A DNA stretch of 64,000 bases from Cyanobium sp. FACHB-13342 (GTDB lineage Bacteria; Cyanobacteriota; Cyanobacteriia; PCC-6307; Cyanobiaceae): positions 1 to 64,000 of the forward strand of contig NZ_JACJRT010000006.1 of the NCBI RefSeq assembly GCF_014697415.1, read 5' to 3'. The notes beneath the pieces were generated by a model. It did no database searches, was not told the DNA's origin, and saw only the letters and a program-made list of their open reading frames with translations. Shown in pieces: positions 3,106 through 38,447 of this stretch (position 1 is the first letter of the stretch; each line of letters opens with the position of its first letter). A program made the translations under genes and the position numbers.

Positions 3106-4062
3106 ATGCATACACACGCCAATGCCCGTCTGACGCAGAAGGGCAGGCTGCGATTGGCTTCTCAACACCTCAACGACCATCGCCCCCTGGCAGAACTGGC
3201 CGCAGAAGCAGGGATTTCACTGCGCTGTGCCTACAAGTGGCTGGCCCGCTACCGCTCAGGTGGACCACCCTCGCTGGCGGATCGACGCAGTGTTCGCCAC
3301 AACCAGCGGCGGACGCTCGATCCGAACCGCCTCCAGCGCGCCGTGGAGCTGCGCCATCAGCGGCTGCACCTGCGTCATATCGCCCGGCCGCTGGTTGCAC
3401 CCTTCTCCACCGTGTCCAGGAGCCTGAACCGCTTAGGCCTGGGGCGATTGCGGAACCTGGAGCCCAAACCTGTGGCGAAGCGTTATGAGCGCCAGACGCC
3501 GGGCGACCTGATTCACATCGACGTCTAGCCGAAGGCTTCTGCGAAGCAGTGGAAGCTGGCCCGCTTCCGCAAGGTGGGTCACCGCATCACCGGCAACCGG
3601 CAGCAGGGCCGTTCCACAGGCGTCGGCTACGACCGGGTCCACGTGGCCATCGACGACGCCACGCGGCTCGCCTATGTGGAGGTTCTTGCTGATGAGCAGC
3701 AAGCCACTGCGATCGGCTTCCTGAGCCGCTCCGTGGCCTGGTTCAACGGCCAGGGCGTCGAGTGCCGTCAGGTGATGAGCGACAACGGTTCGGCCTACAT
3801 CTCCAAGGCCTTTGCCAAGGCCTGCAGCGTCCTCAAGCTCAAGCACATCCGCACCAGGCCCTACACGCCTCGCACGAACGGCAAGGCCGAGCGGTTTATC
3901 CAGACCCTGTGCAAGGAATGGGCCTATGCCATGCCGTTCGAGAACTCCCAGGAGCGGAACCCCTGGCTACCCCGTTACCTGTCGATCTATAACCGGATCA
4001 GGAAACACTCAGCCCTCGGCAGCCGATCCCCTCAGCAGCGGCTCAACGGGCTGCTCTGCTGA
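3106..4062 (+). pseudogene. IS481-family transposase, interrupted by a stop inside a small insertion
   Basis: The start MHTHANARL is typical of IS481 transposases. A helix-turn-helix lies at about residues 28-49 (LAELAAEAGISLRCAYKW). DDE-fold residues are visible as the Asp of LIHIDV (D139), the Asp of VMSDNGSAY, and the Glu of NGKAERFIQT. Codon 141, right after the first catalytic Asp, is TAG (3526-3528). The frame then continues unshifted to 4062. Compared with the usual HIDV-KKL-ARF junction, there seem to be about 24 extra bases here, carrying the stop and a short palindrome. Active transposase therefore cannot be made without readthrough or excision of the insert. Confidence 0.85.
3526..3552 (+). 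repeat. Short palindromic insert within the transposase gene
   Basis: This stretch replaces one expected Lys codon and adds about 24 bases. It holds a perfect hairpin, GCTTC-TGC-GAAGC (3535-3547), preceded by the overlapping palindrome GAAGGCTTC. It keeps the reading frame but introduces TAG. It looks like a small mobile palindromic repeat; I have seen no second copy in this window. Confidence 0.5.
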
Positions 4063-4349: not shown

Positions 4350-4581
4350 GCATGGGGATAGTGTACCCAATCACCTCAATTCAGGCTCAGCTGCCATTCA
4401 GACGAGGGTGAAATGAGCAGATAGAGCCATCGGGACATGGCCTCAGAGTTACGTGGAGGCAAGAAACAGACCTGTCGAGCTCAGGCAGCCCTCAAGCCTC
4501 TGTTACCCAGAGATTCCTTACCATCCCCAAGCACTAAAGTCTCGAGGACTCTTATCGCAATCTAATATCGGATCAATTTTT

Positions 4582-6396
4582 ATGCATGAGAGAAAAACAA
4601 GAACACAGCCCCCATCGACCCGCACACTGCTGCTAGGCATCTGGAGCCATCTAAGCTGGCGCCGGCGCATCCAGCTGGGCTTGCTTCTGGTGGTAATGCT
4701 AGCCAGTGGCGTGGCGGAGCTGGTGTCGCTGGGGGCTGTACTGCCGTTTCTGGCGGTGCTCAGCGACCCCGAACGGTTGTGGCAACAACCTCTAGTAAAT
4801 GCGCTGTTCAGCCGGGCGGGCTTCACAGGGGGAAGGGAACTTCTGATACCCGCCACGCTGGCGTTTGCGGCGGCGGCGGTGCTGGCGGCGCTGATCCGGC
4901 TGGCGAACCTGTGGCTGAATGGCCGGCTCGCGGCGGCGGTGGGCTCCGACCTGAGCTGTGAGGCCTACCGGCGCACGCTGTATCAGCCCTATCGGATGCA
5001 TGTACAGCGCAACAGCGCGGGTGTGATTACGGGCACCACCACCCAAATCGGTGGCACAGTGGCTGCGCTCACGGCGCTGCTGCAGCTGGTGACGGCGGCG
5101 GTGGTGGCGCTGGGGCTGCTGGCGGGCCTACTGCTGATTGATTGGGCGGTGGCGCTGGGGGCGTCGGCGCTGTTTGCCAGTGTGTATGGGCTGCTGGCAA
5201 TAACGACCCGCCGGGAGCTGCAGCGCAACAGTCAGTGGATTGCGGCCGCGGCCAAACAGCAAATCAAGGCGCTGCAGGAGGGGCTGGGGGCGATCCGCGA
5301 TGTGCTGCTGGATGGCAACCAGCCCACCTATGTGGCGATCTACCGGCAGGCGGATAGGCCGCAGCGCCAGCTGCAGGCCAAGAACCAGTTCCTGGGTGCG
5401 TTTCCGCGCTATGCAATGGAGGCGCTGGGGATGGTGGCGATTGCTCTGATGGGCGGGCTACTGGTGCTGCAGAAGGGGACGGGCGGCGCCACTATCCCGT
5501 TGCTAGGGGCACTGGCCCTCGGCGCCCAACGGCTACTGCCATCGCTGCAGCAGGTGTACAGCGGCTGGGCGGTACTGAAAGGTGCCAACGCAAACATCGC
5601 GGCTGTGCTGGCAATGCTTAACCAACCCCTGGAGCCAATAGTGCGCGTAAATGAACCAATGCCGCTGCGTGCGGGTATACGTCTGGAGGGAGTGCACTTC
5701 CGCTACGGCCCGGGGCAGCCAGAGGTGTTGCGGGGGGTGGAGTTGGAGATCCGCCGCGGCGAGCGGATTGGCTTGATCGGCACCACCGGCAGCGGCAAGA
5801 GCACCACGGTGGACCTGCTGATGGGCCTGCTAGAACCAACGTGTGGAAGGGTGCTGGTGGATGGGGCGGATCTGCATGATCCAGCTCATCCCGAGAGACT
5901 GGCGGCCTGGCGGGCAGCAATTGCCCATGTGCCACAGAGCATCTACCTGGCCGACACCTCGGTTGCCGAAAACATCGCCTTTGGCGTGGCACGCCAGCGG
6001 ATCGACCTAGCCCGCGTGCAGCAGGCGGGCGAGCAGGCCCAGATCGCCAGCTTCATTGAGGCCAGCCCGGAGGGTTACGGGAGCTTGGTGGGCGAGCGGG
6101 GCATTCGCCTCAGCGGCGGCCAGCGCCAACGCATCGGCATTGCCCGGGCGCTGTATAAGCAGGCGCGAGTGCTGGTGTTAGATGAGGCAACTAGTGCGCT
6201 TGATACAGACACTGAACAGGCATTGATCGACGCGGTGAACGCGTTGAGCGAGGAGCTGACAATCGTGATGATTGCTCACCGGTTGACCACGGTGCAACGC
6301 TGTGATCGGGTAATTCGCTTGGAGCAGGGGACGGTGGTGGATGACGGGGTTCCGGAGCAGGTGTTGGCAAGGGAGCGGAGCACGCGCAGGCAGTGA
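4582..6396 (+). CDS. ABC exporter, fused membrane and ATPase domains (PglK/MsbA-like)
   Basis: This 604-residue half-transporter probably flips lipid-linked oligosaccharides or exports glycan across the inner membrane. The first 340 residues hold about six hydrophobic segments (for example GLLLVVMLASGVAELVSLG and VVALGLLAGLLLIDW). The ATPase domain has Walker A GTTGSGKST (residues 400-408), the signature LSGGQRQR (from 510), Walker B VLVLDEATSALD (Asp about 534) and the H-loop AHRLTT (His about 566). I chose ATG 4582 because the longer frame from 4453 adds 43 residues without family character. No wzx-like flippase is seen in the window, so this may be the export step of the locus. Confidence 0.9.
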   Translation: MHERKTRTQPPSTRTLLLGIWSHLSWRRRIQLGLLLVVMLASGVAELVSLGAVLPFLAVLSDPERLWQQPLVNALFSRAGFTGGRELLIPATLAFAAAAVLAALIRLANLWLNGRLAAAVGSDLSCEAYRRTLYQPYRMHVQRNSAGVITGTTTQIGGTVAALTALLQLVTAAVVALGLLAGLLLIDWAVALGASALFASVYGLLAITTRRELQRNSQWIAAAAKQQIKALQEGLGAIRDVLLDGNQPTYVAIYRQADRPQRQLQAKNQFLGAFPRYAMEALGMVAIALMGGLLVLQKGTGGATIPLLGALALGAQRLLPSLQQVYSGWAVLKGANANIAAVLAMLNQPLEPIVRVNEPMPLRAGIRLEGVHFRYGPGQPEVLRGVELEIRRGERIGLIGTTGSGKSTTVDLLMGLLEPTCGRVLVDGADLHDPAHPERLAAWRAAIAHVPQSIYLADTSVAENIAFGVARQRIDLARVQQAGEQAQIASFIEASPEGYGSLVGERGIRLSGGQRQRIGIARALYKQARVLVLDEATSALDTDTEQALIDAVNALSEELTIVMIAHRLTTVQRCDRVIRLEQGTVVDDGVPEQVLARERSTRRQ

Positions 6397-6925: not shown

Positions 6926-8026
6926 ATGTACACAATCGCCAACATCCGCCCTCTTGGCTACAACGTCGGGAATCATGCCATTCATTTTGCTCTGCGACAT
7001 ATGCTTTACGAGACCTTTGGAAGGCTGGTGTCGATCATCGATTACCCCGCCACCAGCAAACATGAGTGCACTACAAAGGCTGGGTTGACTCCTGCCACTG
7101 TGCATGAGATCAACCGGTTTGCCGATGGGGTCATCGTCGGCGGTGGAAATCTTTATGAAAACGATGAAATAGCTGTTGATGCACGAGCGCTTGCGGCGCT
7201 GAAGCCGCCCTTGATGTTGTTCTCTAATTCGCGTGGACGGATTTATGACAGGCATGGGCAATTGTCAGACCGGTCAGATGTGATTCCAGATGCCAAGCTT
7301 ACAGCACTTCTGAGGCGAGCAGATATATCTATGTCACGCGATAGTGCCACACAAGGATATTTACAATGTATTGATGCTCGCGAGCTAATTGGGTGGTGTC
7401 CAACAATCAACATGAACCGCTATGCGAATAATTTGCCTGAGTTGCCTGAAAACGAGGATGTTGGCGCATTGATTTCAGTGCGCACTCCACAGTTAATGAA
7501 TGTACCCTACAGATATCAGAGCCGGATTCAATCGCATATCGAAAGTGCTATCGATGCGCTACGATCAGCCGGACATAAGCGCATCCGTATCTTATGCAAT
7601 GACAGCCGCGATCTTGATTTTGCAACTGCATTTCGCTATACAAAGCAAGTTGATTCTGTATACACCAATGATGTTTATCAATATTTGGCATTATTGAGAG
7701 CAGCCCAGATGGTAGTCAGCTATCGACTACATGCATCACTTCCAGCAATTTCATTCGGAACACCAACAGTGAATATCGTTTATGACGAACGGGCGGATTC
7801 CCTTTTTGATGATCTTGGGCTGACCTCAGCGCGATTAAATTTAGTAGAATTGGGTGATAGATTTGTTGAATCACTAACCAAGTCAATAAGCTTGGGAGGA
7901 TACGGGCCTCAACAACATGCGCAGCTGAAGACAGATTGGCAGGCGAAAACTGATATACAGTTCGATCACATGACTAACTTCAAGAGATTGATGGAAAACT
8001 ATCTTAAGACGGGATTACGTTCGTGA
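6926..8026 (+). CDS. Polysaccharide pyruvyl transferase family protein
   Basis: This is a 366-residue member of the PS_pyruv_trans (CsaB-like) family. Known members transfer pyruvate from phosphoenolpyruvate to a sugar, forming a ketal. Family marks are the early GYNVGNHAI, the loop VIVGGGNLYEN (about residues 69-79), SRDSATQGYL, and the C-terminal block SYRLHASLPAISFGTPTVNI. The stop overlaps the start of the next gene and begins a five-gene coupled cassette. The start ATG lies directly after the TAA of the upstream pseudogene, with GAAGG at a suitable distance. Sequence composition is AT-richer than the chromosomal core. Whether it really makes pyruvylated sugar or has another transfer role cannot be settled from sequence. 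Confidence 0.8.
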   Translation: MYTIANIRPLGYNVGNHAIHFALRHMLYETFGRLVSIIDYPATSKHECTTKAGLTPATVHEINRFADGVIVGGGNLYENDEIAVDARALAALKPPLMLFSNSRGRIYDRHGQLSDRSDVIPDAKLTALLRRADISMSRDSATQGYLQCIDARELIGWCPTINMNRYANNLPELPENEDVGALISVRTPQLMNVPYRYQSRIQSHIESAIDALRSAGHKRIRILCNDSRDLDFATAFRYTKQVDSVYTNDVYQYLALLRAAQMVVSYRLHASLPAISFGTPTVNIVYDERADSLFDDLGLTSARLNLVELGDRFVESLTKSISLGGYGPQQHAQLKTDWQAKTDIQFDHMTNFKRLMENYLKTGLRS

Positions 8027-8964
8027 TAATGGCAAATCCTTCCTCTCTGGTGGTATTTCATGTCCAGGCAGGAAGCCGCATCGGCATGGGACATCTGTCT
8101 CGATCGCGGGCGATCATAGGGATGTTGCAGGTTATGGGTTTTAATTGCACTTTGTATCTAGATTCTGATGCTCAGGGTGCAGCAAAAGCTCGCGCATTGG
8201 GCCTAGAGCCGATAGATGCACTTCCGGCAGCTCCGTCCGCATTGGTGATCGATGCAATCACTCTGGATCGCATGCAGGCTGATGTATTGCAGAGCTATGC
8301 TCCGCGGATTCTGATCTCGCCAGTCTTTAATCGTGTAGATATCATCAGCCATGCACTGGTCCGCTCTGCTCCTTTTGGCTTGCTCGATAATCTGCCGGAT
8401 GGAGCAACGCTGCATATCAAGACAGATTACGCCTTTGCCACTGCCCATGGCCTACATCTGCGTAAACTAGATTTTTCAAAGTTGGAAATCGGTCTTTGTT
8501 TGTCAGGGGGAGTGGACTCTATGGAGCCAAACACTGTGTTGTCTGTACTTGATGCCTTGCCACAGGTGGCCGGGGTTAAAGTGATTGATCCTCGTAGCCT
8601 GCCCCCAGTCAAAACCGATTTGCATCACGTATTGCACGCTGATCGACCATGGGATTTACTACAAGGCATAAATGTGTTTGTTGGCGGTGATGGAGTAATG
8701 CTCGCAGAGGCTATTGCTCAAGGATTGCCAACAATCTCTCTAAGTACGCCATCAGGTAATGCCAAGAATATAGGGCTAGTGAAGAGTGGTGCGTTGCGGA
8801 TAATCGAACGTCACATTTACATGCAATATGCACTGTCGACTCTGCTGGACGATAGAGAAGAGTTGGAAGCGATGCACAGTGCAGCACTTAAACTGAACGG
8901 CGCGGCACGTTCCACTCGTCTCGCAGAAGATATCCGAACAATCCTTGAGGAGAAATCCCAATGA
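8023..8964 (+). CDS. PseG/SpsG-like nucleotide-sugar hydrolase or glycosyltransferase
   Basis: The protein has a GT-B-like fold signature with GSRIGMGHLSRSRAI near the N-terminus, matching the GxGHxxR motif of PseG. PseG removes the nucleotide from an activated amino sugar in pseudaminic acid synthesis. SGGVDSMEPNTVLSVLDAL (about residue 160 on) and VFVGGDGVMLAEAIAQGLP (about 228-246) form the C-terminal nucleotide-binding region typical of this group. GTG 8023 overlaps the preceding TGA; ATG 8029 is an equally possible start. It lies directly before a NeuB homologue, as spsG-type genes do next to spsE. I infer that it supplies the free sugar for the next enzyme; a plain glycosyltransferase remains possible. 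Confidence 0.75.
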   Translation: MIMANPSSLVVFHVQAGSRIGMGHLSRSRAIIGMLQVMGFNCTLYLDSDAQGAAKARALGLEPIDALPAAPSALVIDAITLDRMQADVLQSYAPRILISPVFNRVDIISHALVRSAPFGLLDNLPDGATLHIKTDYAFATAHGLHLRKLDFSKLEIGLCLSGGVDSMEPNTVLSVLDALPQVAGVKVIDPRSLPPVKTDLHHVLHADRPWDLLQGINVFVGGDGVMLAEAIAQGLPTISLSTPSGNAKNIGLVKSGALRIIERHIYMQYALSTLLDDREELEAMHSAALKLNGAARSTRLAEDIRTILEEKSQ

Positions 8965-10061
8965 CAAAAGCCCCCGAAATTATCGCTGAGGCCGGAAGCA
9001 ACCACAATGGTGATCCTGACCGCGCCTGTGCCCTAATTGATCTAGCTGCGCGGGTAGGAGCTAGTTCGGTTAAGTTCCAGTTCATCCTGGCTAAGGGCCT
9101 CTATTTGGATGATTTCTATGATGGTAAAGGTTATGTGCCCAACCCCGTTTTCGACCAGCGTAGGTCTGAAGAGTTGTCCGAGGGCGATTGGAGACACATT
9201 TGGGACCATGCCAAAGCGAAGGGTATCCCTGTATCGGCGTCGGTCTTCTGCCAGGAAGGATTAGCTCTGCTGAGGCGGTTGGGCGCGCCATATGTCAAGA
9301 TTGCCTCGACGGATCTGACGAATCACGCGTTGATCGAGAAGGCTTGTACCTTTTTCGATCGGGTTATCGTCTCAACTGGGATGGCAACGCTCGCTGAAAT
9401 CGACACAATGTTGCGTTGTGTGCGTGCGTCACATCCGAAGACTGACCTACAGCTGATGCATTGCGTCTCAGCCTATCCGTGCCCGCTAGAAGATGCGAAT
9501 ACTCAGCGCTTAGGAATGCTCAAGCGAGCCTTCGGGCTTCCTGTGGGTTACTCAGACCATACGGGCGACAACATTTCCGCGGCTATGGCATTGATGCAGG
9601 GAGCCGATTTCTTTGAGAAGCATTTTACAACAGACCAGCGCCTGCCTGGTTTCGATCATCGTCATGCGTTGGATGGGTTGGGTCTAGAAAATTATGTTCG
9701 CACCCTGACTGCTGCCACTGCCTCGCTCAGTCGCCCCGCTAATCACCTGTCAGACCGCGAGCAGGTCACACGCATCCGTGCGCGAAGGGGGGTCTATGCA
9801 GCGCGCGATTTGCCGGCAGGCCATTTACTACGCCCGGAGGATCTACTATTCGTAAGGCCTAGCACTGAGTTCACCGTCACTGATCCGGCGGTTCTAGTTG
9901 GTAAGCGACTGGAAGTCGATGTTGCTCGACATGCCGCACTTGGCCCATCTCACGCTGTGAAGGTCGTGGAGTCGAGGTGGCAGGCTGCCAAGGACTATTG
10001 GGGTCGAGAAATGTCAGAAAAAGGCATGAGCATGTCTGAATCTGCGGAAAAAGCTGACTAA
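8961..10061 (+). CDS. NeuB-family nonulosonic acid synthase (PEP-condensing, with SAF domain)
   Basis: NeuB, PseI and LegI enzymes condense an N-acylated hexose with phosphoenolpyruvate to make nine-carbon sialic, pseudaminic or legionaminic acids. The TIM barrel begins EIIAEAGSNHNGD (residues 6-18) and includes STGMATLAEI, MHCVSAYPCP, GYSDHTGD and EKHFTTD; the two His residues match the metal ligands of the family. A C-terminal SAF (antifreeze-like) domain starts near residue 272 (RARRGVYAARDLPAGHLL). GAGGAG lies 8 bases before the ATG, which overlaps the previous stop as ATGA. Substrate specificity cannot be decided. The B. subtilis homologue SpsE is another possible nearest relative. Confidence 0.9.
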   Translation: MTKAPEIIAEAGSNHNGDPDRACALIDLAARVGASSVKFQFILAKGLYLDDFYDGKGYVPNPVFDQRRSEELSEGDWRHIWDHAKAKGIPVSASVFCQEGLALLRRLGAPYVKIASTDLTNHALIEKACTFFDRVIVSTGMATLAEIDTMLRCVRASHPKTDLQLMHCVSAYPCPLEDANTQRLGMLKRAFGLPVGYSDHTGDNISAAMALMQGADFFEKHFTTDQRLPGFDHRHALDGLGLENYVRTLTAATASLSRPANHLSDREQVTRIRARRGVYAARDLPAGHLLRPEDLLFVRPSTEFTVTDPAVLVGKRLEVDVARHAALGPSHAVKVVESRWQAAKDYWGREMSEKGMSMSESAEKAD

Positions 10062-10064
10062 GCC

Positions 10065-10760
10065 ATGCATCGTGCAGTCTTTGTCTATGCGCGTAACGAT
10101 TCTAAGCGTCTACCTGGCAAGGCACTGATAGCTCTAGGTTCTGGCGGCCCACTTTTGAGCATAGTCCTGAACCGCGCCCGCATGGTTGGGGCCGAGTCCT
10201 GCGCCCTTGTGACTTCGAATCGAGGAGTAGATGACGGGCTGGCTGAAATGGGCGCAGCTCTTGGAGTTCAGGTGGTGCGTGGAGATGCTGTCAATCTTGT
10301 TCGGCGTACCATTCAAGCCATACATGCCACAGGGGCGTCGCATTTCCTGCGAGTGAATGGTGATTCGCCTTTTTTCTCACCGCGTCTGGCACAGCAGGCA
10401 ATGACTCATCTGAATCGTGCCGTACTAATCAGTAATCTTTTTGAGCGCCGTTTCCCTTACGGCGTGGCCGTGGAATGGGTAGCTGCCTCAGCTTATCAAG
10501 CACTAGCCTCCAGCGCGGATGATGCTGAGTGTGAACATGTCACTGCCCATCTTTACCGGAAGCGTGCCGAGCTTTCTCTACTATCGATGACTCAGGCTAG
10601 AGACGATAGCAAGCTTCAACTAACTATTGATACAATAGCTGATCATAAGCGGCTCACCGCGTTGTTGGGACAAGCCGACCCAGTGCAAGCTGAATACTGG
10701 AATCTATATGGCATACCAGTTCCTCAGCCATTACTTAATCTACTCAAAGAAAATAGATGA
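10065..10760 (+). CDS. SpsF/NeuA-like cytidylyltransferase family protein
   Basis: The N-terminus carries ARNDSKRLPGKAL (residues 9-21), the nucleotide-binding signature of SpsF-type sugar cytidylyltransferases. NGDSPFFSP (about residue 98-106) supplies a metal-binding Asp, and KLQLTIDTIADHKRL is the family C-terminal signature. Such enzymes activate nonulosonic acids with CTP to CMP-sugars. It begins 3 bases after the NeuB homologue and its stop overlaps the next gene by four bases. At 231 residues its length fits the family. The role in making a CMP-activated nine-carbon sugar is inferred from the neighbour. Confidence 0.8.
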   Translation: MHRAVFVYARNDSKRLPGKALIALGSGGPLLSIVLNRARMVGAESCALVTSNRGVDDGLAEMGAALGVQVVRGDAVNLVRRTIQAIHATGASHFLRVNGDSPFFSPRLAQQAMTHLNRAVLISNLFERRFPYGVAVEWVAASAYQALASSADDAECEHVTAHLYRKRAELSLLSMTQARDDSKLQLTIDTIADHKRLTALLGQADPVQAEYWNLYGIPVPQPLLNLLKENR

Positions 10761-12199
10761 ACTGGCTTCAGAGAATATTACTTGCTTTGCATTATGAGCC
10801 AGAAGTTTGGGCTGCATATCTTTTGGGCCAGATGTTTAATGAACGTGCTTCCGGAATTCCGCCTAAACCACGTTACTCAGGGTTGCCGCTACGTCTGGTT
10901 GCATATACTCGTGAATTGATAAGGTCTGTTCGGTTTAAATTGTCAGCTCGTGAGCATCCTTCGGTAGATGTACTCGTAATAGCACAGACCGCCAACCAAG
11001 CAAGTTCATTGGCTACAACAGTAAAGCATCTTCGCAGCCAAGGTGTTTCTGTTCACGCCGTGACTAGTGGCCATAGTGCAATTACCATATTAGAAAGGTT
11101 TGCATGTGATGAACATGAATGGATAACACTTAGCCCAGTTGGTGTGTTAAAAGTTGCTTTACTAACGATAATTCGAACGCCGGTTATATGGTGGCATCTA
11201 GCAGGCAAAGATCAAAGGCTGGGGCAGTGGTTCTTAGATGAGTTTCTGCGCTGTCATATCTATCTAGTCTATTTCGATAAGAAGCTGGCCACAATAAACC
11301 CGCGACTTATTCTGGTGAGCAATGATCACAATACGCCCCAGAGATGTTTGCTAGCACTGGCAAGAGTAAAAGGCATCAAAACAGCTTATCTGCAGCATGC
11401 CTCTGTTTCACAGTTATTTCCAGCTCTCGTTTTTGATTACAGTCTTCTTGATGGAGAAAAGGCAATGCATACTTATATCAAATGCGAATCAAATAAGCCT
11501 GATATCGCAGCAAAACCGAATCAAAGGCATCTGTTCTTGACAGGCCAGAAGAAATCTATTCATCGCTCCAAAGAAGTATCGTCCAATACTGTTGGATTGG
11601 CCATTAAACCATTAGATAACATGCAGGATGTGATGAAGATTGCTACTGCGATTAGTCAAGCCGGATATCCAGTGCTGTTGCGTTGGCACCCTGCGATGAG
11701 CAGGGAAAAAGCCGATGAGTTTCGTAAAGCATGCTCATCGAATCCATCCGTCACATTTAGCGAACCATTACTTGAGCCAGTCGGTAATTTTTTAGCGCAG
11801 CTTGTCGTGCTTGTTGCGGCCAATAGCAGCATTCACCTAGAGGCTGCAGTTGCGGGCTTAGTGCCCATTTATTTTGAAATCTCGCCTGTAAGCACACGGG
11901 ATTACTACGGCTTTGTGAAAAATGGGTTGAGCGCCGAAGCCAAAGATATAGATGCTATCATTCACTTGATTGGCGAAGTAATTGCTGGTCATCGCAAAAT
12001 AGATTCGATAGCAGTGCAGACTTACAGCGCTACTTACGACACGGAGTGGGAAGGCCGGGAAGGTGAATTAGCTGGCAGCATTATTAAAGATCTTCTAGAT
12101 GGCATCGAGCCTGCAGATTGCTGGGGCTATGCGGGCGTGCTGGGATCGGTGATAAGCCAGAAGATCGACGCTATGGAATCCCAGGAATCCAGAAATTGA
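10757..12199 (+). CDS. Predicted GT-B-like surface glycan transferase, unassigned family
   Basis: I do not recognise a named enzyme in this 480-residue protein. A central block (INPRLILVSNDHNTPQRC, then KTAYLQHASVSQLFPAL and FDYSLLDGEKA) and a late block (LLRWHPAM, ANSSIHLEAAVAGLVPIYFE) resemble capsule polysialyltransferase and CDP-glycerol-type GT-B transferases. In those families a His-containing centre and a late Ser/Glu pair hold the donor nucleotide. As the last gene of the coupled cassette it is the best candidate to transfer the CMP-activated sugar. The final 35 or so residues look unlike the rest and may be readthrough into the decayed Uma2 DNA that follows. Confidence 0.6.
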   Translation: MNWLQRILLALHYEPEVWAAYLLGQMFNERASGIPPKPRYSGLPLRLVAYTRELIRSVRFKLSAREHPSVDVLVIAQTANQASSLATTVKHLRSQGVSVHAVTSGHSAITILERFACDEHEWITLSPVGVLKVALLTIIRTPVIWWHLAGKDQRLGQWFLDEFLRCHIYLVYFDKKLATINPRLILVSNDHNTPQRCLLALARVKGIKTAYLQHASVSQLFPALVFDYSLLDGEKAMHTYIKCESNKPDIAAKPNQRHLFLTGQKKSIHRSKEVSSNTVGLAIKPLDNMQDVMKIATAISQAGYPVLLRWHPAMSREKADEFRKACSSNPSVTFSEPLLEPVGNFLAQLVVLVAANSSIHLEAAVAGLVPIYFEISPVSTRDYYGFVKNGLSAEAKDIDAIIHLIGEVIAGHRKIDSIAVQTYSATYDTEWEGREGELAGSIIKDLLDGIEPADCWGYAGVLGSVISQKIDAMESQESRN

Positions 12200-12218
12200 C
12201 CTACCCAACCATCCAGCT

Positions 12219-12549
12219 TCTACTTATGGAAGCGGCTTCCGCTTGCCAAAGGTTTCGGTTCGCAGCCCGGATAAACGCCACGTCTTTCCGTCGCTCTATC
12301 CCCGACCTAGTGGTGAATCTGGCCAGCTCCAGTGATGAGGGTCCACCGGGAGTGACTGCATTGCGCAAGAAGATGGCCGCCTATCAAGGCAATGGCGCCA
12401 GGCTGGTCTGGCTGCTGCCACACGCGCAGGCCGAGGAGGTAAGGCTCGCCAATGGCGAACCGCAACAGCTGGAGCAGGGTCCCGTGCTGGAGGCCAGCGC
12501 GGAGTTCCCCGGGCTGCAGTTGCAGCTGGCTGAGATTTGCATCGGGTGA
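12219..12549 (+). pseudogene. Uma2-type (DUF820) endonuclease remnant with frameshift
   Basis: The C-terminal half of a Uma2 family nuclease-fold protein is readable: PDLVVNLASSSDEG (from about 12301), KKMAAYQGNGARLVWLLPH, then EFPGLQLQLAEICIG ending in TGA at 12547. The preceding core reads in a different frame as SGFRLPKVSVRSPD (from about 12231), so there is a frameshift between about 12260 and 12304 as well as loss of the N-terminal 80 or so residues. Uma2 genes are very abundant in cyanobacteria, often as mobile or decayed copies. GC content rises here compared with the cassette upstream, pointing to a junction between DNA of different origin. Confidence 0.7.
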
Positions 12550-13418: not shown

Positions 13419-14654
13419 ATGAAGATTCTACACATCGCAGCTGGGGAGCTCTCTGGTGGGGCGGCCAAAGGCTCGTATCTTCTCCACCAGGCGCAGTGCA
13501 AAATAGGTGTAAATTCAAAGCTTCTTATCTCCGGCGGTGATTCCTACGGTGATGAATCGGTAATCGCCCTCACGGCTTGCTCGCAGCACAAGCGCATCGA
13601 GCTTGCGCTGAGTCAGCGAATTGGGAACCTCCCTTTAAGCCTTTATCGGAGGCGTAGGCCCTGGATATTTAATACGGGCCTAGCTGGAATTGATTTCACT
13701 CGCTTGCCCGATTACAAAAGTGCGGACTTAGTCCATTTGCACTGGATCAATGGGCTTGTGGCAATACCTTCTCTGCAGAAGGTCAAAAAGCCGATCGTCT
13801 GGACGATGCGTGACATGTGGCCCCTCACCGGTGGCTGCCACTATTCGATGGAGTGCAACCGCTATCAAGAAGGCTGTGGCAAATGCCCACAGCTACAGAG
13901 CAGATCATATTTTGACATATCGCGCTTCACTGTCTCCATGAAACGGAGATGCCTGCCTGCCAAACTACAACCTGTTGGCATCAGCTTTTGGCTTAGTAAT
14001 GCGGCATCTTCGTCGGCTGTGTTTGCTAATCACTCAGTACGGACAATCAGCAATAATATTGATACGCGTGTATTTGCCCCTACAGACCAAGGCACTGCCA
14101 GATCACTGCTTAGCTTGCCATCTGCTAACAAGATCATTCTTATTGGAGCCCAGAAGCTAACAGATTTTTATAAAGGATTTGATCTTTTTCTAGATGCCAT
14201 CCGATACCTTGCAAGAGATGACATCCATGTAGTCACCTTCGGCCATGCCGCAAAGGCAGCAATGGCTTCCATTTTGATCCCACAAATCCACCTTGGCTTC
14301 TTGGCGGATTCAATCTCTCTGCGGCTTGCCTACAGCGCTGCCGATCTCTTTGTTGCGCCATCCCGGATGGAGGCCTTCGGCAAGACGCTAGCTGAATCGT
14401 TGGCGTGTGGCACGCCCGCTGTCTGCTTCAATGCCACTGGACCGAGGGATATCGTTGATCACAAGCGCACTGGCTACAAGGCACAGCCTTTTGATGCCGC
14501 TGATCTTGCTAGAGGAATCGACTGGGTTTTGGGCCTTCCGCCTGACCACTATCAGGCCATGCGATCAGAATGCCGAGAAACCGCTCTAAAGCGGTTTGAT
14601 TCACGGGTCATCGCTCGCCAGTATCTTAATCTTTACCAAGAGATTCTTGAGTGA
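13419..14654 (+). CDS. Family GT4 glycosyltransferase
   Basis: This 411-residue retaining glycosyltransferase has GT-B architecture. The N-terminal domain starts MKILHIAAGELSGGAAKGSY, and HLHWINGLVAIPSL and WTMRDMWPLTGGCHYS are typical of WcaC/Bme6-like capsule transferases. The C-terminal donor-binding domain includes IGAQKLTDFYKGFDLFLDA and the E-x7-E motif in PSRMEAFGKTLAESL (about residues 309-323), then GTPAVCFNATGP. It presumably adds one sugar to the lipid-linked repeat unit in the cytoplasm. A strong promoter precedes it. Donor and acceptor are unknown. Confidence 0.85.
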   Translation: MKILHIAAGELSGGAAKGSYLLHQAQCKIGVNSKLLISGGDSYGDESVIALTACSQHKRIELALSQRIGNLPLSLYRRRRPWIFNTGLAGIDFTRLPDYKSADLVHLHWINGLVAIPSLQKVKKPIVWTMRDMWPLTGGCHYSMECNRYQEGCGKCPQLQSRSYFDISRFTVSMKRRCLPAKLQPVGISFWLSNAASSSAVFANHSVRTISNNIDTRVFAPTDQGTARSLLSLPSANKIILIGAQKLTDFYKGFDLFLDAIRYLARDDIHVVTFGHAAKAAMASILIPQIHLGFLADSISLRLAYSAADLFVAPSRMEAFGKTLAESLACGTPAVCFNATGPRDIVDHKRTGYKAQPFDAADLARGIDWVLGLPPDHYQAMRSECRETALKRFDSRVIARQYLNLYQEILE

Positions 14655-14769
14655 TTGCATCACTTGAATCTAGCCTATCCGCCCAGTTCTCCTGGTTAGT
14701 TCTTCATTATTTTCTGACATTGCTACAATTGCATTTATTTTCCCTGATCCTCACAGCACATAAAACATT

Positions 14770-15561
14770 GTGACGTCTAATCCAAATGGGTCATGCTTAC
14801 TTTCCATTCTTACCACTACACGCAGTGACCCTAGGCTGGCGAGGTGCATCCGATCGACACTGCCCTTGCTGAATTATCTGAACTTTGAGCATATTATTCA
14901 CGAAGGTGGCTCAACCTCAGAAGAAGCGGAACTTCTCATTAATTCTTATTCGCATATCCGTTATTCATGCTATCCAGATGCTGGCATATATGATGGAATG
15001 AATATATGCCTTTCTGCTGCACTCGGAGATTATTGTGTTACTCTTAACTCTGATGACACACTGATAGAAGATTCATTTCCATTTTTGAAGCTATTATTAG
15101 ATTTGGACGAGGATGTCTTTTGTTTTGACGTTCTTGTCTGCGGTCCTTCACCTGGAGCGTCCTCGTTTCTGTTTTCAAGTATATTATCTGCTCGTTTATC
15201 GCTAGTTCATCTTTCGCTGGGGATGGCCTATCCCCATCCAGGATTTATTTCTAAAACTAGCCTCGCTAAGCTAGTCAAATTTAATACTAATGCCGGAGTC
15301 CAGGCGGATTTGTTGTTTATATATAATATGCTTTCAATGCTCGCTCGTCGCCCGACGTTTCTGATCGGAATCCCCCTGCAGCGCTTTGAGCTGGGTGGGG
15401 CTAGTTGCAAACAAATTGGCCTAATAGCCTCCAATCCTCACATTCAAGGCTTACATCTAGTGTTTCTTAGTAGCTTGCCGCTACGAAGCAAGCTCATAGG
15501 CATACCCATAAAACTGCTTCAATCACTCTTTTATATTATTAAGCAACTGATGCCATCATAG
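14770..15561 (+). CDS. Family GT2 glycosyltransferase
   Basis: A 263-residue inverting GT-A transferase. It opens with LLSILTTTRSDPRLARCI, and YPDAGIYDGMNICLSAALG followed by TLNSDDTLIED (about residues 94-104) gives the nucleotide and metal-binding region of WcaA/WbbN-type enzymes. GMAYPHPGFISKTSL is the acceptor-side motif seen in many capsule transferases. The start is GTG at 14770, chosen because the conserved strand begins about 10 residues later. Composition is strongly AT-rich. The C-terminal end is hydrophobic and may contact the membrane. The sugar transferred is unknown. Confidence 0.8.
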   Translation: MTSNPNGSCLLSILTTTRSDPRLARCIRSTLPLLNYLNFEHIIHEGGSTSEEAELLINSYSHIRYSCYPDAGIYDGMNICLSAALGDYCVTLNSDDTLIEDSFPFLKLLLDLDEDVFCFDVLVCGPSPGASSFLFSSILSARLSLVHLSLGMAYPHPGFISKTSLAKLVKFNTNAGVQADLLFIYNMLSMLARRPTFLIGIPLQRFELGGASCKQIGLIASNPHIQGLHLVFLSSLPLRSKLIGIPIKLLQSLFYIIKQLMPS

Positions 15562-15889
15562 CCTCACAGACTTAAATTAATGCAAAGGCTGCCAAGCATT
15601 ATCCGCCTCGGGGTCCCGATAATCATTAGCAGCTGTAACTCTGTACCTCAAGGCATTTAGCCATAATAAGTGTTCATTTAAGATAGCAGACAGGATCGCC
15701 AAGCATCGCAGACTTCTGCCTGCCATAAACCCATAAGAGCCGTTTAATTTTTTTTGAGGGTTTTATCATAGCCTCTCTAAAGTGCGTCATGCGAACAATT
15801 TGTCGTTCAGATATTAAGCTTAGTGCAATAGTCTGGTTCGATTACTAAGCATCTCCGTTTCTCCATCCTTGCCTTTGGAATTACCCCGG
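15562..15889. other. AT-rich intergenic stretch before the IS3 remnant
   Basis: No gene is evident in these 328 bases. A T-run near 15750 (AATTTTTTTTGAGG) follows no strong hairpin that I can pair, so I do not call a terminator. Confidence 0.35.
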
Positions 15890-16130
15890 TTCGTTGGAGA
15901 GGCGTGAAGCTTTAGCAATTTTAGTGTATAAGTTTTGACAAACTGCTGCTCATAGTCGATAGAGCTAAGGCAGCCTATTGTCGAGTGATAAAGCTTGTGA
16001 CTGCAGTAACTCTCTATCTATAAGACAAACTTGCTGATCTAGTGCTGGGGGGTTGTTCAAGATCTCGCCTTCGTCATCGAGAGGCAATTCAAGTTTGAGG
16101 GTGGAGAAGAAGCTCTCCACCGCTGCGCTT
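15890..16130 (-). mobile_element. IS3-family OrfB (integrase) C-terminal remnant
   Basis: Read on the minus strand, AVESFFSTLKLELPLDDEG (from about 16125) is followed, after a gap and an internal stop, by IESYCSHKLYHSTIGCLSS and DYEQQFVKTY. This is the characteristic end of IS3-type transposases (the NAAVESFFSTLK and RRHSALGYLSP regions), with several lesions and no N-terminal part. It is a scar of past insertion; no terminal repeats could be identified. Confidence 0.65.
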
Positions 16131-16240
16131 GACACTGTGGTATGAAGTGGGTGATGTCACTGGCCCTACAGCGGTTAGGGGCTGATAGGTTGCAATCCTG
16201 CTAAGGCAAGTTCTTTGCGATTCCAGCGGCATTGGTGTTT

Positions 16241-16417
16241 ATGTTGCGGGATGGCCTACCCCCGAACACCAACCTCACTGAAGCAGAGCTCTACAGCCTC
16301 CTAGCTTTGCTGCGCCGTAACCCTGCCTTATCTTTGTCCTTGGACATTGATGGACAGCCTGAGCCTCATGACGTGAGCCCCATAACCTTCCTACGAAATC
16401 AGAGCAAACACACTTGA
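16241..16417 (+). CDS. Small open frame of unknown function
   Basis: A 58-codon frame lies between the IS3 scar and the next glycosyltransferase. Its text (GLPPNTNLTEAELYSLLALLRRNPALSLSLDIDGQ) reads like a plausible protein segment with a helix, but I do not recognise a family. It could be the end of a larger lost gene. A real gene is possible but unproven. Confidence 0.2.
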   Translation: MLRDGLPPNTNLTEAELYSLLALLRRNPALSLSLDIDGQPEPHDVSPITFLRNQSKHT

Positions 16418-16502
16418 ATTATAAAGCGGTTTATTTGGAAAGTACATATTGCAACGAGGCTGTATTATTTGCACCCTTGCAGCTTCTTGTTTTCTGCCCA
16501 TT

Positions 16503-17372
16503 ATGACTGCCGAAAACAATAGTAAGCCAGTCCGCAACCTAACCGTCTTCTATCTTTGCTACAACCAATGGGATATCATAACAGAATCACTGCTTAATCT
16601 AGCATCCGGCCTGTCAAGCGACATCATATCTTCAGTCAGAGTGTTCATCTGCGACGATTGCTCGTCTCGCGATAAAAGCAAAGATCTCTTATTCAGCCTT
16701 AATTGCTATCCCAAGCTCGAAGTTAGGATTTACCGAAATAGCAATAATCTCGGCCCAGGCCCTTCACGGAATTATCTTTTAAGCATTTGCAATTCCAGCC
16801 ACTTCTGTTTTGTGGATGGAGATGATGCAATATCGGCACCTGCGATCCATGAGTTCTTTAATGCCCCTGCTGATTTTGAGATATATCAATTTCCCATAAT
16901 ATTAGGTAGCAGATTCATTTCAACAGCTGTTTCGACTCCAAATTCATCATATTTGCATTGGCTGTATCCACGGTGGGGCTTATGCACTGGAAGACAAAAA
17001 TTATTATTCACATCGTGCTCAAGAATAATCTCTAGTAGTTTTGCACGGAAATATTCTTATTGCTATGGCACATCTCGGAGATATGAAGATATTTTGCCGT
17101 ACGCAATCTGCTCTATTTATGCAGGCTCAATTAGAATCTGCCTCGAGCCTCTGATCCGGGCAAGGGTATCCCTCACGTCAGGGTCAAGATCTGTAAAGCT
17201 TGCATTCTATAGATATCTGTTGGAGTCTTTGCGAAGCCTCTGGACTTTCGATTTTCCCTCTACTTCATTTATTTTTCTAACCAGCTTAACGCTGCAGTCT
17301 GTTAGGTCTGTATCGTTTTCCTATCTCCGTTCCCTTTTCCATAGACAATTTACTGCGATTAGTCGAAAATGA
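16503..17372 (+). CDS. Family GT2 glycosyltransferase
   Basis: A 289-residue GT-A transferase with NLTVFYLCYNQWDIITESL at the N-terminus, VFICDDCSSRDKS (first Asp pair), and the DxD-like metal site FCFVDGDDAIS near residue 103. GTSRRYEDILPYAIC holds a likely catalytic ED pair. ATG 16503 was preferred to an in-frame TTG at 16449 because the conserved first strand starts just after it. The C-terminal 60 residues are rich in Ser, Phe and Leu. The stop overlaps the next ATG (ATGA), coupling it to the acetyltransferase. AT-rich composition marks it as part of the imported block. Confidence 0.8.
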   Translation: MTAENNSKPVRNLTVFYLCYNQWDIITESLLNLASGLSSDIISSVRVFICDDCSSRDKSKDLLFSLNCYPKLEVRIYRNSNNLGPGPSRNYLLSICNSSHFCFVDGDDAISAPAIHEFFNAPADFEIYQFPIILGSRFISTAVSTPNSSYLHWLYPRWGLCTGRQKLLFTSCSRIISSSFARKYSYCYGTSRRYEDILPYAICSIYAGSIRICLEPLIRARVSLTSGSRSVKLAFYRYLLESLRSLWTFDFPSTSFIFLTSLTLQSVRSVSFSYLRSLFHRQFTAISRK

Positions 17373-17962
17373 AGAATGTCGCATTTTTTAGATACTCGCT
17401 ATTTGACTATGTCAGTTTAGCTTTAAATATACTCCTCAGCAAGTTGCTATACCCACGCTCACGCCTAATACGATTCCCCTTTTATGTGCGTGGATTTGCT
17501 CAGATTGAATTCGGGAAAAACCTGACGACTGGTCGTTTTTGTCGCATCGACGCACTTTGCTTATCTACAGTTTTACCTGAATTGCCTGTAAAAAAGCTCG
17601 TTTTTGGAGAGAACATTCAGATAGGTGATCGTGTCCACATTGCTGTTGCAGAAAAGATCATCATTGGAGATCACTGTCTGATTGCCAGTAATGTCTTCAT
17701 ATCTGACCATGATCATGGATCCACAGATCTAGACTCTATGTTAATCCCACCATCCGCGCGGGAACTCATCACGGCCCCCATCCAAATTGGTCATTCTTGC
17801 TGGTTAGGTCAGAATGTGTGCATTCTTAAGGGAGTGACACTCGGAGAGCACTGCATTGTTGCCGCAGGTGCTGTGGTGACACGTTCTTTTCCAGCTTTTT
17901 CCATTATTGGAGGTGTTCCCGCAAAAATCTTAAAATCCCCGCAAAAGATGCGGCCAAGCTAA
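17369..17962 (+). CDS. WbbJ-like hexapeptide-repeat acetyltransferase
   Basis: A 197-residue left-handed beta-helix enzyme. The characteristic loop ISDHDHGSTD (about residues 111-120) carries the catalytic His, and hexads such as IQIGDRVHIAVAEKIIIGDH and CWLGQNVCILKGVTLGEH precede the closing IGGVPAKILK. It likely O-acetylates a sugar of the repeat unit from acetyl-CoA in the cytoplasm. It is coupled to the GT2 gene upstream by a four-base overlap, suggesting that the two act on the same residue of the glycan. Confidence 0.85.
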   Translation: MKNVAFFRYSLFDYVSLALNILLSKLLYPRSRLIRFPFYVRGFAQIEFGKNLTTGRFCRIDALCLSTVLPELPVKKLVFGENIQIGDRVHIAVAEKIIIGDHCLIASNVFISDHDHGSTDLDSMLIPPSARELITAPIQIGHSCWLGQNVCILKGVTLGEHCIVAAGAVVTRSFPAFSIIGGVPAKILKSPQKMRPS

Positions 17963-19114: not shown

Positions 19115-20053
19115 GTGCAAATCTCCTCGTCTGTATTGCCTCAACTTCACCTCTTCGGTGCAGCTACGCCAGCTGGCAACTCCTTCGTCGAGCTCGTGCG
19201 CGCTAACCCATGCCCATGGCCACTGTTTGGTTATTCGCGTGATCCCTCGAAGCAAGCAGAATGGATACATCGCGCTGACTTACACGATCCAAAATCTTTC
19301 AATCCACAAGGTGATCGAAGGTCATGCAAAAATGATCTGTGGATCAGCTTTGCGCCGATTTGGCTACTGGCCCCCTTTTTAGACCAGCTAACTGACAGCC
19401 ACCCTGAGCGTTTGCAGGGTATTCGTGGCCTGATCGCCTGCTCATCCTCCTCGGTGATCACAAAGCGCTTTGCCTCTAATGGCTCTGATCGTGAGCTCGT
19501 GACCCGGCTCAGCGGTGCTGAAGATCAGCTGCTGGCCACTTGCCGCCGCTTGCAGGTGCCCTGCCATATCCTGCAGCCCACCCTTATCTACGGCCAAGCG
19601 GGGCCCTACAGCGATCGCAATCTCAGTAAGTTTCTTCAGATGCTCCGGCGGCTGCCCTGCTTACCCCTTCCTGCTGACTCCGGCCTGCGCCAGCCGATCC
19701 ATGCCACCCAGCTCGCCGCCGTTGTGCTTCACATAGCTCAACAGATCAGTGCGACTGGCCGCGATCATTGCTTACCGGAACGCATCACCCTGGGTGGCGA
19801 CACCACCCTCACCTACACAGCCATGATCAAGGCCCTGCAACAGTGCCAACCTCCGGGGGATCCTGCACGCCATTGCCACCTACTGCCCATCCCAAACCGC
19901 CTGTTCTTTTCCCTCGCTGCTCCCCTCTTGCTGCGGTCGCCCAAGGCCTTCGAAGCGGTGTTGCGCATAGGCGCCAACCTCTCTGGCTTCACCCCCGCCC
20001 ACCAGCTACTGGGCCGTGAACCCCAGCCCTTTCCGGTGTTGCCGCTGGCCTGA
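19115..20053 (+). CDS. Extended SDR, WbpV-like UDP-4-keto-sugar reductase
   Basis: A 312-residue NAD(P)-dependent SDR. The nucleotide loop is a degenerate glycine motif (LFGAATPAGNSFV), and the central segment SSSSVITKRF followed about 15 residues later by RLSGAEDQL matches the WbpV/RmlD-like 4-reductases of UDP-QuiNAc or FucNAc pathways, where the usual YxxxK is absent. QPTLIYGQAGPYSDRNL and RQPIHATQLAAVVLH follow the same pattern. The next two genes encode the matching lipid-carrier transferase and 4,6-dehydratase. Coding becomes GC-rich within this gene. The start (GTG 19115) is uncertain. Confidence 0.7.
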   Translation: MQISSSVLPQLHLFGAATPAGNSFVELVRANPCPWPLFGYSRDPSKQAEWIHRADLHDPKSFNPQGDRRSCKNDLWISFAPIWLLAPFLDQLTDSHPERLQGIRGLIACSSSSVITKRFASNGSDRELVTRLSGAEDQLLATCRRLQVPCHILQPTLIYGQAGPYSDRNLSKFLQMLRRLPCLPLPADSGLRQPIHATQLAAVVLHIAQQISATGRDHCLPERITLGGDTTLTYTAMIKALQQCQPPGDPARHCHLLPIPNRLFFSLAAPLLLRSPKAFEAVLRIGANLSGFTPAHQLLGREPQPFPVLPLA

Positions 20054-21066
20054 TGCTGCTGTCCGTGTTTGTTGGGGTAGCGCTACCTGCTTTTGCTGCC
20101 TGGTGGCTCCTACATGAGTTGATACCCAATCTGCGCCATCGCCTGCTCGACGAGCCCAACGCTCGCAGCTCCCACAGCCAGCCCACACCCCGGGGTGGCG
20201 GCGTGGCGTTTGTGCTCGTGGCCGTAGCTGCAAGCGCGATTGGCTGGTTTGGTTGTGCCTTCTCTGGTCAGCCGGGCCTTGCAGGCAGACCGTGGGCCAT
20301 GGTGGCCTTGCCCCTGCTGGCCCTGCCGCTGGCTGTGGTGGGCTTTCTCGACGACCGCCACAACCTCCCCGCCAGCCTGCGCTATGGCGTGCAGCTGGCC
20401 ACGGCGCTGCTGTTGATTCTGATGAGTCCGCTGCCGCTGCCATGGTTGGCGCTGCCCCTACTGTTCATTGCCGTCACTGCGGTGATCAACTTCACCAACT
20501 TCATGGACGGGCTGGATGGCCTGGTAACCGGCTGCATGGCCGTGGCCCTCAGCGCAATTGCCACGGAGCTCGCCGCCCCTTGGCCCCTCTGGGCGCTGGT
20601 GGGTGCCTTACTTGGCTTCCTGCTCTGGAACTGGAGCCCGGCCAAGGTGTTCATGGGCGATGTGGGCAGCACCTTTCTGGGAGCTGTGTTCGCCGGACTG
20701 GTGTTGCAGGCTCGCAGCTGGCCCGAAGCCCTGGGGATGCTGCTAGTGGCCACCCCCCTACTGGCTGATGCCTGCCTCTGCGTACCCCGCCGCCTAATGG
20801 CCGGCCAGCCCGTGTTCAAGGCCCACCGCCTGCACCTGTTCCAGCGCCTGCACCAGGCCGGCTGGTCCCATGGCCAAGTGGCCAGCCTCTACATCGCGGC
20901 CACCGCTGCATCGGCGGTTGCCCTGCTCTGGGGCGGATTGCAGGCGGTGCTGACGCTGGCCGCTACGGAGCTGCTGGTGGGACTCTGGCTCGATCAACGT
21001 GTGGCTGTTCCCTTCGCAAAGGCTCTGGCGGGCACACGCGCCCACCAACCCGTGGTGCCGGAGTGA
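20053..21066 (+). CDS. WecA/WbpL-family undecaprenyl-phosphate sugar-1-phosphate transferase
   Basis: This 337-residue polytopic membrane enzyme starts glycan assembly by moving an N-acetylamino-sugar phosphate from UDP onto undecaprenyl phosphate. About ten hydrophobic segments are visible. Cytoplasmic motifs are NARSSHSQPTPRGGG (about residues 36-50), LDDRHNLPA, NFMDGLDGL (Mg-binding DxxDG, about 151-159), KVFMGDVGSTFLG, and a His-containing loop KAHRLHLFQRL. It overlaps the preceding SDR gene by one base (TGATG) and the next by one base, so all three are translated together. The sugar is probably QuiNAc or FucNAc given the neighbours, but GlcNAc is not excluded. Confidence 0.9.
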   Translation: MLLSVFVGVALPAFAAWWLLHELIPNLRHRLLDEPNARSSHSQPTPRGGGVAFVLVAVAASAIGWFGCAFSGQPGLAGRPWAMVALPLLALPLAVVGFLDDRHNLPASLRYGVQLATALLLILMSPLPLPWLALPLLFIAVTAVINFTNFMDGLDGLVTGCMAVALSAIATELAAPWPLWALVGALLGFLLWNWSPAKVFMGDVGSTFLGAVFAGLVLQARSWPEALGMLLVATPLLADACLCVPRRLMAGQPVFKAHRLHLFQRLHQAGWSHGQVASLYIAATAASAVALLWGGLQAVLTLAATELLVGLWLDQRVAVPFAKALAGTRAHQPVVPE

Positions 21067-38421: not shown

Positions 38422-38447
38422 GGGGACACAAGCATTGGGATAGTGGG

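Follow-up and report, generated by a model that had tools for sequence, protein, structure and literature searches.

The cassette and its recurrence

The window analysed here is the whole stretch of DNA from position 1 to 64,000 of contig NZ_JACJRT010000006.1 of Cyanobium sp. FACHB-13342 (source genome: 2.37 Mb, 99.39% complete). Between positions 6926 and 12199 the window carries a cassette of sugar-metabolism genes, whose members resemble enzymes of nonulosonic (sialic-like) acid synthesis. In the list of open reading frames (ORFs), five ORFs adjoin one another, overlapping by 4 bases at three junctions and lying 3 bases apart at the fourth, and the five-gene cassette reported in the first-pass annotation was thereby confirmed. 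The genes, with the evidence used to assign them, are:

6926..8026, + strand: gene 1, polysaccharide pyruvyltransferase (PPT) of family PF04230, module clade, 366 aa (Pfam, orthologues, residues, structure model)
8023..8964, + strand: gene 2, PseG/SpsG-like nucleoside diphosphate (NDP)-sugar hydrolase, 313 aa (motif, weak PseG match, hhalign)
8961..10061, + strand: gene 3, NeuB-family phosphoenolpyruvate (PEP)-condensing synthase with SAF domain, module clade, 366 aa (Pfam, trees)
10065..10760, + strand: gene 4, SpsF-like cytidine monophosphate (CMP)-sugar cytidylyltransferase, 231 aa (Pfam, PDB match, identity)
10757..12199, + strand: gene 5 (gt5), probable glycosyltransferase of no family, 480 aa (Sinorhizobium/Ensifer likeness)

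The families of genes 1 to 4 (PPT, PseG-like, NeuB and SpsF-like) were found together in five of six distinct PPT-clade loci among the matches listed: the window, a second cyanobacterium (G196, locus L243), a Gemmataceae metagenome-assembled genome from Lake Baikal (G485/L065), a second planctomycete (G585, locus L289) and the viral contig L147; the sixth locus is the viral contig L226. This recurrence exceeds chance. The pyruvyltransferase-like gene at the head of the cassette, which had been singled out as unusual, is thus part of a set, because its PF04230 family recurs with the other three.

Relatives were collected with a NeuB alignment, and the best 80 of 545 relatives (587 candidates) from genome contigs and the best 80 of 569 relatives (600 candidates) from viral contigs were considered; further module loci may exist beyond the best 80 of each scan. 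The genome contigs yielded relatives to the alignment and none to the window NeuB alone, and tblastn of the window PPT at 1e-3 gave no match in the phages and plasmids collections. NeuB relatives were present in 50 of 149 related genomes (own genome included), the others being at most 37% identical, save a 40-residue fragment at 48%. In several relatives (L013, L019, L026, L027, L029, L030) NeuB lies inside a single open frame of 770-890 aa, perhaps a fusion.

G196 holds the sole other clear PPT match in 386 genomes of the phylum, presumably Cyanobacteria, and the E-values fall from 1.7e-70 to 1.8e-5 with none between. A second PPT search, in 291 genomes, gave a drop from 9.4e-113 to 1.5e-10, with weaker PF04230-type matches in 110 of the 291, G196 included. 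Likewise, G585 holds the sole other clear match in 343 genomes of its phylum.

Gene order is PPT-PseG-NeuB-SpsF in the window; in the other four module loci SpsF directly precedes PPT. The two genes overlap by 4 bases in L065, L147 and G585 (start codons chosen by the analyst) and are 121 bases apart in G196. G196 has the order SpsF-PPT-NeuB-PseG. In L065 all four genes are present and NeuB is 45% identical to that of the window. The marine viral contigs L145-L147 also carry all four, with NeuB relatives at 39%; they share an identical gene layout and were counted once. In G585 the order is SpsF-PPT-NeuB, and PseG is encoded on the opposite strand at a distance of about 4 kb. There (L289 12528-16324), genes like HisH and HisF and an amidotransferase-like gene (assigned by eye, no Pfam match) adjoin the module PseG, which suggests an acetamidino group on the sugar of that planctomycete.

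The viral status of contig L147 rests mainly on its IMG/VR source; the contig also has a weak late-sigma-factor match, a nucleotide-sugar epimerase and genes of families GT11 and GT10 (fucosyltransferase-family). A weak MptE-like gene (L147 5403-6254; 21.9 bits, cut-off 34.6) stands before the viral module, beside SpsF; we take the MptE-like domain to be a Maf-type nonulosonic acid transferase domain.

Enzyme families of the module

Gene 1, whose protein falls in a small clade, matched PF04230 at 51.8 bits (gathering cut-off 25.3) and was 39-46% identical to its orthologues in G196, G485/L065, G585, L147 and L226. It shares family and PEP-binding residues with the ketal-pyruvyltransferases CsaB and WcaK, and differs from them in scoring far below both equivalog cut-offs (CsaB TIGR03609: 49.4, cut-off 213.1), in a lysine-to-arginine signature and in adjoining NeuB. 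The window PPT keeps R138, R186, R267 and H269, and R289 replaces the family lysine. According to passages of PMC10435577, the matching residues in Paenibacillus alvei CsaB, an enzyme tied to the 4,6-ketal on N-acetylmannosamine (ManNAc), are R148, R207, R306, H308 and K328; R148K/Q, R207D, H308A and H308R abolished activity, and K328R was active. The RxH and K/R positions align cleanly to CsaB (20 residues from H to K/R in both proteins), and R148 and R207 were mapped via homologues only.

The PEP-site pattern R...R...RxH was kept in all six module-clade PPTs. The column of CsaB K328 held arginine in six of six, against lysine in 15 of 15 other rows (13 distinct), and the second PEP-site arginine was kept in 13 of those 15. 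The comparison rows were Escherichia coli WcaK and the first 14 of 32 PF04230-type candidates, with two places duplicated. An AF2 model built from four sequences had a GT-B fold (pLDDT 83, pTM 0.85), and a PPT profile search against PDB sequences gave three matches, all with E 0.036 or worse, taken as chance. The kept PEP-site residues, together with the active K328R variant of CsaB, favour a working PEP-dependent pyruvyltransferase over a repurposed glycosyltransferase as the predicted function of gene 1.

Gene 3 matched NeuB (PF03102, 189 bits) and SAF (PF08666, 29.5 bits), both over the gathering score. The three module NeuBs scored (window, L065 and L147) missed the equivalog cut-offs for N-acetylneuraminic acid synthase (TIGR03569, cut-off 399.65: 227.7, 269.7 and 257.9) and for pseudaminic acid synthase (TIGR03586, cut-off 340.25: 183.8, 249.4 and 234.4). 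In a 124-row tree the four intact module NeuBs formed one clade (SH-aLRT support 100, branch of 0.98 changes per column), apart from the five pseI rows and the four neuB rows, each of which formed its own group; the tree proposed as a check on this homologue thus places it in a separate module clade. Without three long rows the clade again had support 100, on a branch of 1.25 changes per column. The G196 NeuB was outside the trees. The pseI labels of L058 and L060 are our own, since these are presumably part of the Sinorhizobium K-antigen locus, and those of the remaining three pseI rows and of the neuB rows follow record annotations. Clustering with 3-deoxy-D-manno-octulosonate 8-phosphate (KDO8P) synthases was not seen. 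A KDO8P or 3-deoxy-D-arabino-heptulosonate 7-phosphate synthase identity was rejected on the NeuB and SAF matches and not on the tree, which held no KDO8P synthase.

Metal-, substrate- and N-acyl-binding positions are kept in the window NeuB (E10, H200, H221 and R299, by alignment to SiaC, 1xuu), the role of Arg314 being taken from passages of PMC6795526. Parts of PMC7371886 give the C2 marker after the conserved serine as Gly in neuraminic (Neu) and legionaminic (Leg) acid synthases and Phe in pseudaminic (Pse) acid synthases, and hold that segment 70-85 of nmNeuB sets C4-C6 specificity. Among our references the marker was G in 4/4 neuB and F in 4/5 pseI rows. The four intact module NeuBs had T, C, C and C, G196 had G, and the Pse-type Phe occurred in none. 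Within the C4-C6 segment (mapped by the 1xuu alignment), V63 and R67 were each present in all five module NeuBs and in 1 of 120 other rows. The four intact proteins also have A236 (S in 114/120 others) and F or L at 231 (P in 92/120). R273 was dropped as a clade mark because PseI-type rows hold R or K there too (15/120).

Gene 2 had no Pfam match and a weak N-terminal match to PseG (TIGR03590, 23.9 bits, cut-off 153.55), and carries GMGHLSR, which we take to be the hydrolase motif. Aligned with the module hydrolases of L065, L147 and G585, it gave an hhalign probability of 94.8 over 286 columns; those of L065 and L147 matched PseG at 4e-21 and 5e-22 (75.8 and 78.8 bits, below the cut-off). Gene 4 matched CTP_transf_3 (PF02348) at 59.2 bits (gathering score 22.6), its best PDB match was 6oew, 'Cytidylyltransferase' (1.2e-19), and it was 28-37% identical to the module SpsFs. 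The families of genes 2 to 4 support the late nonulosonic-acid steps that had been proposed for them, namely NDP-sugar hydrolysis, PEP condensation and CMP activation.

Searches of Pfam, NCBIfam and PHROG assigned no family to gene 5, and none of 385 other genomes of the phylum gave a match. Gene 5 was 25-26% identical to the N-terminal part of a Sinorhizobium/Ensifer plasmid protein of about 1024 aa; the loci of that protein also have a NeuB homologue at a distance of 6-10 kb, which was of PseI type in both loci included in the tree. That protein (L058, L059, L060, around 15.5-18.8 kb) has a GT-D-like domain in the one scanned, L060. The single-sequence structure model of gene 5 was too poor to use (pLDDT 40), and its profile with the Sinorhizobium/Ensifer proteins matched no PDB sequence. 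Gene 5 is taken as a probable transferase that would use the product.

Early pathway enzymes and the surrounding island

For the missing early steps the first-pass annotation had offered three readings: genes elsewhere, a contribution from a WbpM-like gene, or a novel keto-sugar as product. LegB, LegC and NeuC were searched for in the source genome, and PseB and PseC in four module genomes. LegB (TIGR04180) matched 12 places, with a best score of 122.6 (cut-off 475), and PseB reached 146.3 at best (cut-off 407.75). The PF01041 matches in the source genome, in eight places, comprise two strong proteins and five weak places (18-32 bits). One strong protein (contig C3) is RfbH, at 628.5 bits; the other (contig C12) is a DegT aminotransferase of generic PseC-like type (255.5, cut-off 423.5). 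The LegC model (TIGR04181, cut-off 420) gave 195.8 on the C12 protein and 87.2 on the other, the five weak places being unscored. The only Epimerase_2 (PF02350) protein is WecB (484.2 bits; NeuC model 79.5, cut-off 235.9). PseB and PseC each exceeded the cut-off in none of the four module genomes; these negatives concern the families named, PseH/LegH-type acetyltransferases having been searched for in no genome.

Low scores do not prove absence of function. Nevertheless, the idea of an ordinary Neu, Pse or Leg cluster whose early genes are dispersed was rejected, because no PseB, PseC, LegB, LegC or NeuC candidate scored reached its cut-off, and in a genome 99.39% complete the placement of the early steps elsewhere found no support. 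The WbpM-like gene at 21063 scored 146 against the PseB cut-off of 407.75 and has backbone composition; a contribution from it may remain. Of the initial interpretation, the late steps and the PF04230 membership therefore stood, and the scattered early steps did not.

Cassette genes have a GC content of 0.45-0.54, and of 0.41-0.55 at third codon positions (GC3), against a GC content of 0.688 for the window from 24 to 64 kb. The cassette is part of a low-GC island inside a surface-polysaccharide locus. Other features of the window include:

4453..6396, + strand: ABC exporter of MsbA/PglK type, upstream neighbour and possible flippase (PF00005, 104.8 bits; MsbA 279.9 and PglK 245.4, both below cut-off)
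13419..17962, + strand: one GT4 and two GT2 glycosyltransferase genes and a WbbJ-like acetyltransferase gene (below cut-off), in the same low-GC island
20053..22946, + strand: WecA/MraY-type initiating transferase and WbpM-like 4,6-dehydratase genes, of backbone composition (GC 0.66-0.68)
37642-38460: DUF561 gene

DUF561 is presumably cyanobacterial and plastid, which fits the earlier description of the host as a picocyanobacterium. An integrase-core transposase fragment (3574-4062) and a Uma2-family fragment (12118-12549) flank the cassette on either side. Promoter and terminator scans gave no excess over shuffles.

Sequence of GDP-mannose-dehydratase type stands at two contig ends (window 1-689, and L056 on contig C3; 92% identical over 690 bases), and the assembly may have broken off next to two surface-sugar loci because of repeats of the gene. 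L056 is a second low-GC surface-sugar island, adjoining RfbH; by eye, it also has genes for CDP-dideoxyhexoses that resemble RfbF and RfbG. On contig C12, a second CTP_transf_3 gene (L054 43-1391, 139 bits) lies beside a HAD-type hydrolase gene; the pair is KdsB-KdsC-like by eye, so the genome may make 3-deoxy-D-manno-octulosonic acid (Kdo) too.

Proposed function and alternatives

The module shares PseG-like hydrolysis, PEP condensation and CMP activation with the pseudaminic pathway (PseB-C-H-G-I-F), but lacks PseB and PseC over the cut-off, has a NeuB that scores under the PseI cut-off and does not have the Phe marker of Pse synthases, and carries an extra PF04230 gene. A NeuB synthase with SAF domain and a cytidylyltransferase are common to it and the Neu and Leg pathways (NeuC-B-A; LegB-C-H-G-I-F); here no NeuC, LegB or LegC candidate passed its cut-off, a PseG-like hydrolase replaces NeuC/LegG, and the marker Gly is replaced in the four intact module NeuBs (G196 keeps Gly). 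The Bacillus subtilis sps operon, which we take to comprise SpsC-D-E-F-G, has an SpsE/F/G-like trio in common with the cassette, and SpsE (1vli) was the best single-sequence PDB match of the window NeuB; the cassette has no SpsC or SpsD partner and adds a pyruvyltransferase.

By its gene content and clade structure, the cassette holds what we read, with a probability of roughly 0.5, as a dedicated late-step module for a CMP-activated nonulosonic acid of its own branch, probably bearing a pyruvate ketal and probably acquired with the surface-polysaccharide island. The module seems to represent its own branch within a familiar type of sugar pathway, and it probably makes a sialic acid relative that is unusual in carrying pyruvate and is destined for the cell surface. 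From the gene families, their co-occurrence, the clade status and the PEP-binding residues we infer reactions, step order, substrate and product as follows: the PseG-like hydrolase would free a hexose from its nucleotide sugar, the NeuB-family enzyme would join this hexose to PEP, giving a 2-keto acid of nine carbons, the SpsF-like enzyme would activate this acid as a CMP sugar, the PF04230 enzyme would attach another pyruvate in ketal form, either to the hexose or to the nine-carbon sugar, and gene 5 would be the transferase using the CMP-sugar product. A precedent for the proposed type of product is the 7,9-pyruvylated 2-keto-3-deoxynonulosonic acid (Kdn) found in Promicromonospora citrea, reported in passages of PMC6801904; that product, a teichulosonic acid, belongs to an actinobacterial cell-wall polymer, and the likeness drawn is one of product type (a pyruvate ketal on a nonulosonic acid, here proposed).

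A more specific and tentative version has the hexose pyruvylated first, so that the module would yield a nonulosonic acid with a 7,9-O-pyruvate ketal in CMP-activated form. The PseG-like enzyme would hydrolyse UDP-ManNAc, supplied by the housekeeping WecB, or a comparable nucleotide hexose, and the PF04230 enzyme would pyruvylate the hexose to its 4,6-ketal, in the way that CsaB modifies ManNAc. R67 of NeuB, in the C4-C6 segment, would then read the added carboxylate before PEP condensation. Condensation with PEP turns O4 and O6 of the hexose into O7 and O9 of the nine-carbon product; with two PEP molecules used, the sugar would be doubly acidic. By this route no dehydratase, aminotransferase or acetyltransferase would be needed.

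Several observations weigh against the proposed late-step module and its pyruvylated product. Without the three long rows, the module NeuBs fall in a 31-row set with the five pseI rows (support 95), and NeuB has the stretch [RK]-x-RR-[SG]-[ILV]-Y seen in PseI rows; both lean towards a Pse-like and against a Neu-type substrate, and a Pse-like substrate has no O9, which makes a 7,9-ketal impossible. In G585, a DegT gene (268.5 bits) lies about 4 kb from the module, so that a diamino-sugar substrate is possible for the pathway, and the amidotransferase-type set stands next to PseG. The G196 NeuB and PseG are in pieces, with homology over more than one frame (L243 7236-9275), and the SpsF and PPT frames are open; the broken frames reflect either a decaying module or assembly errors. 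The window hydrolase is only 22-27% identical to two other module hydrolases. The 12.8 kb examined of the 19.1-kb contig L226 include the PPT but no NeuB, SpsF or PseG, and a distant PPT match in the planctomycete G705 (6.3e-25; too distant for the six-locus count) blurs the edge of the PPT clade. Finally, the PDB fold matches listed for the PPT model are 2-epimerases and GT4 enzymes (Z 16-20), the solved pyruvyltransferase Pvg1p (5ax7) being outside the 50 rows listed in each of two fold searches; such matches to the model show fold, not function.

It is conceivable, though we think it unlikely, that generalist enzymes (the WbpM-like protein, the C12 DegT protein and an acetyltransferase) supply the diamino sugar for a Pse- or Leg-type acid and that the PPT acts on another residue of the same glycan. 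The placement of NeuB on the pseI side, the C12 score to PseC, the two hexapeptide acetyltransferases of the window, the PseG-like hydrolase in 5/5 module loci and the genes around the G585 module would all suit such a route, but the early-enzyme candidates score below the curated cut-offs, and the C2 marker is T or C in four of the five module NeuBs, where all four neuB references have G and four of the five pseI references F. That the PF04230 protein is instead a repurposed glycosyltransferase moving the nonulosonic acid from CMP to an acceptor seems improbable: the GT-B fold and its structural matches, and the place of the PPT gene, directly after that of the cytidylyltransferase in all module loci but the window, agree with it, whereas the kept arginines and histidine of the PEP site argue for pyruvyl transfer, and other candidate transferases exist in the weak MptE-like gene of the viral module and in gt5 of the window.

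Pyruvylation and nonulosonic-acid synthesis might also modify one polysaccharide independently, their genes being neighbours only because genes for surface glycans move as a group. Many surface-glycan clusters contain a PF04230 gene, and in L226 the PPT gene (7995-9017, on a contig with a capsid gene) lies among glycosyltransferase-like genes (by eye). We rate such independence as decidedly improbable, since the same PPT and NeuB clades are joined in 5/6 loci of distant hosts (the G196 NeuB being outside the trees), and the co-occurrence holds although weaker PF04230-type matches are widespread. It is very improbable that the cassette is incomplete or decaying and without product: the integrase-core and Uma2 fragments nearby and the interrupted G196 frames would fit decay, but in the window all five frames are open and closely coupled, and conserved residues are kept.

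In the open-licence full-text literature (subscription papers being outside its scope), NeuB, 'polysaccharide pyruvyl transferase' and cytidylyltransferase were not found together in any paper, and among the titles and opening lines of abstracts listed from that literature none tied the PF04230 clade to nonulosonic acids or described the module. According to parts of PMC7371886, gene content is used to assign nonulosonic acid clusters to Neu, Pse or Leg routes; by the tests made, the module fits none of the three. The structure of a pyruvylated nonulosonic acid is reported for one actinobacterium in the passages of PMC6801904 cited above, and the module provides a defined four-gene set and candidate genes for such a sugar. 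Its NeuB offers a readable specificity signature, and the occurrence of the module on a viral contig of marine origin would suggest that viruses drive changes in surface sugars or their spread.

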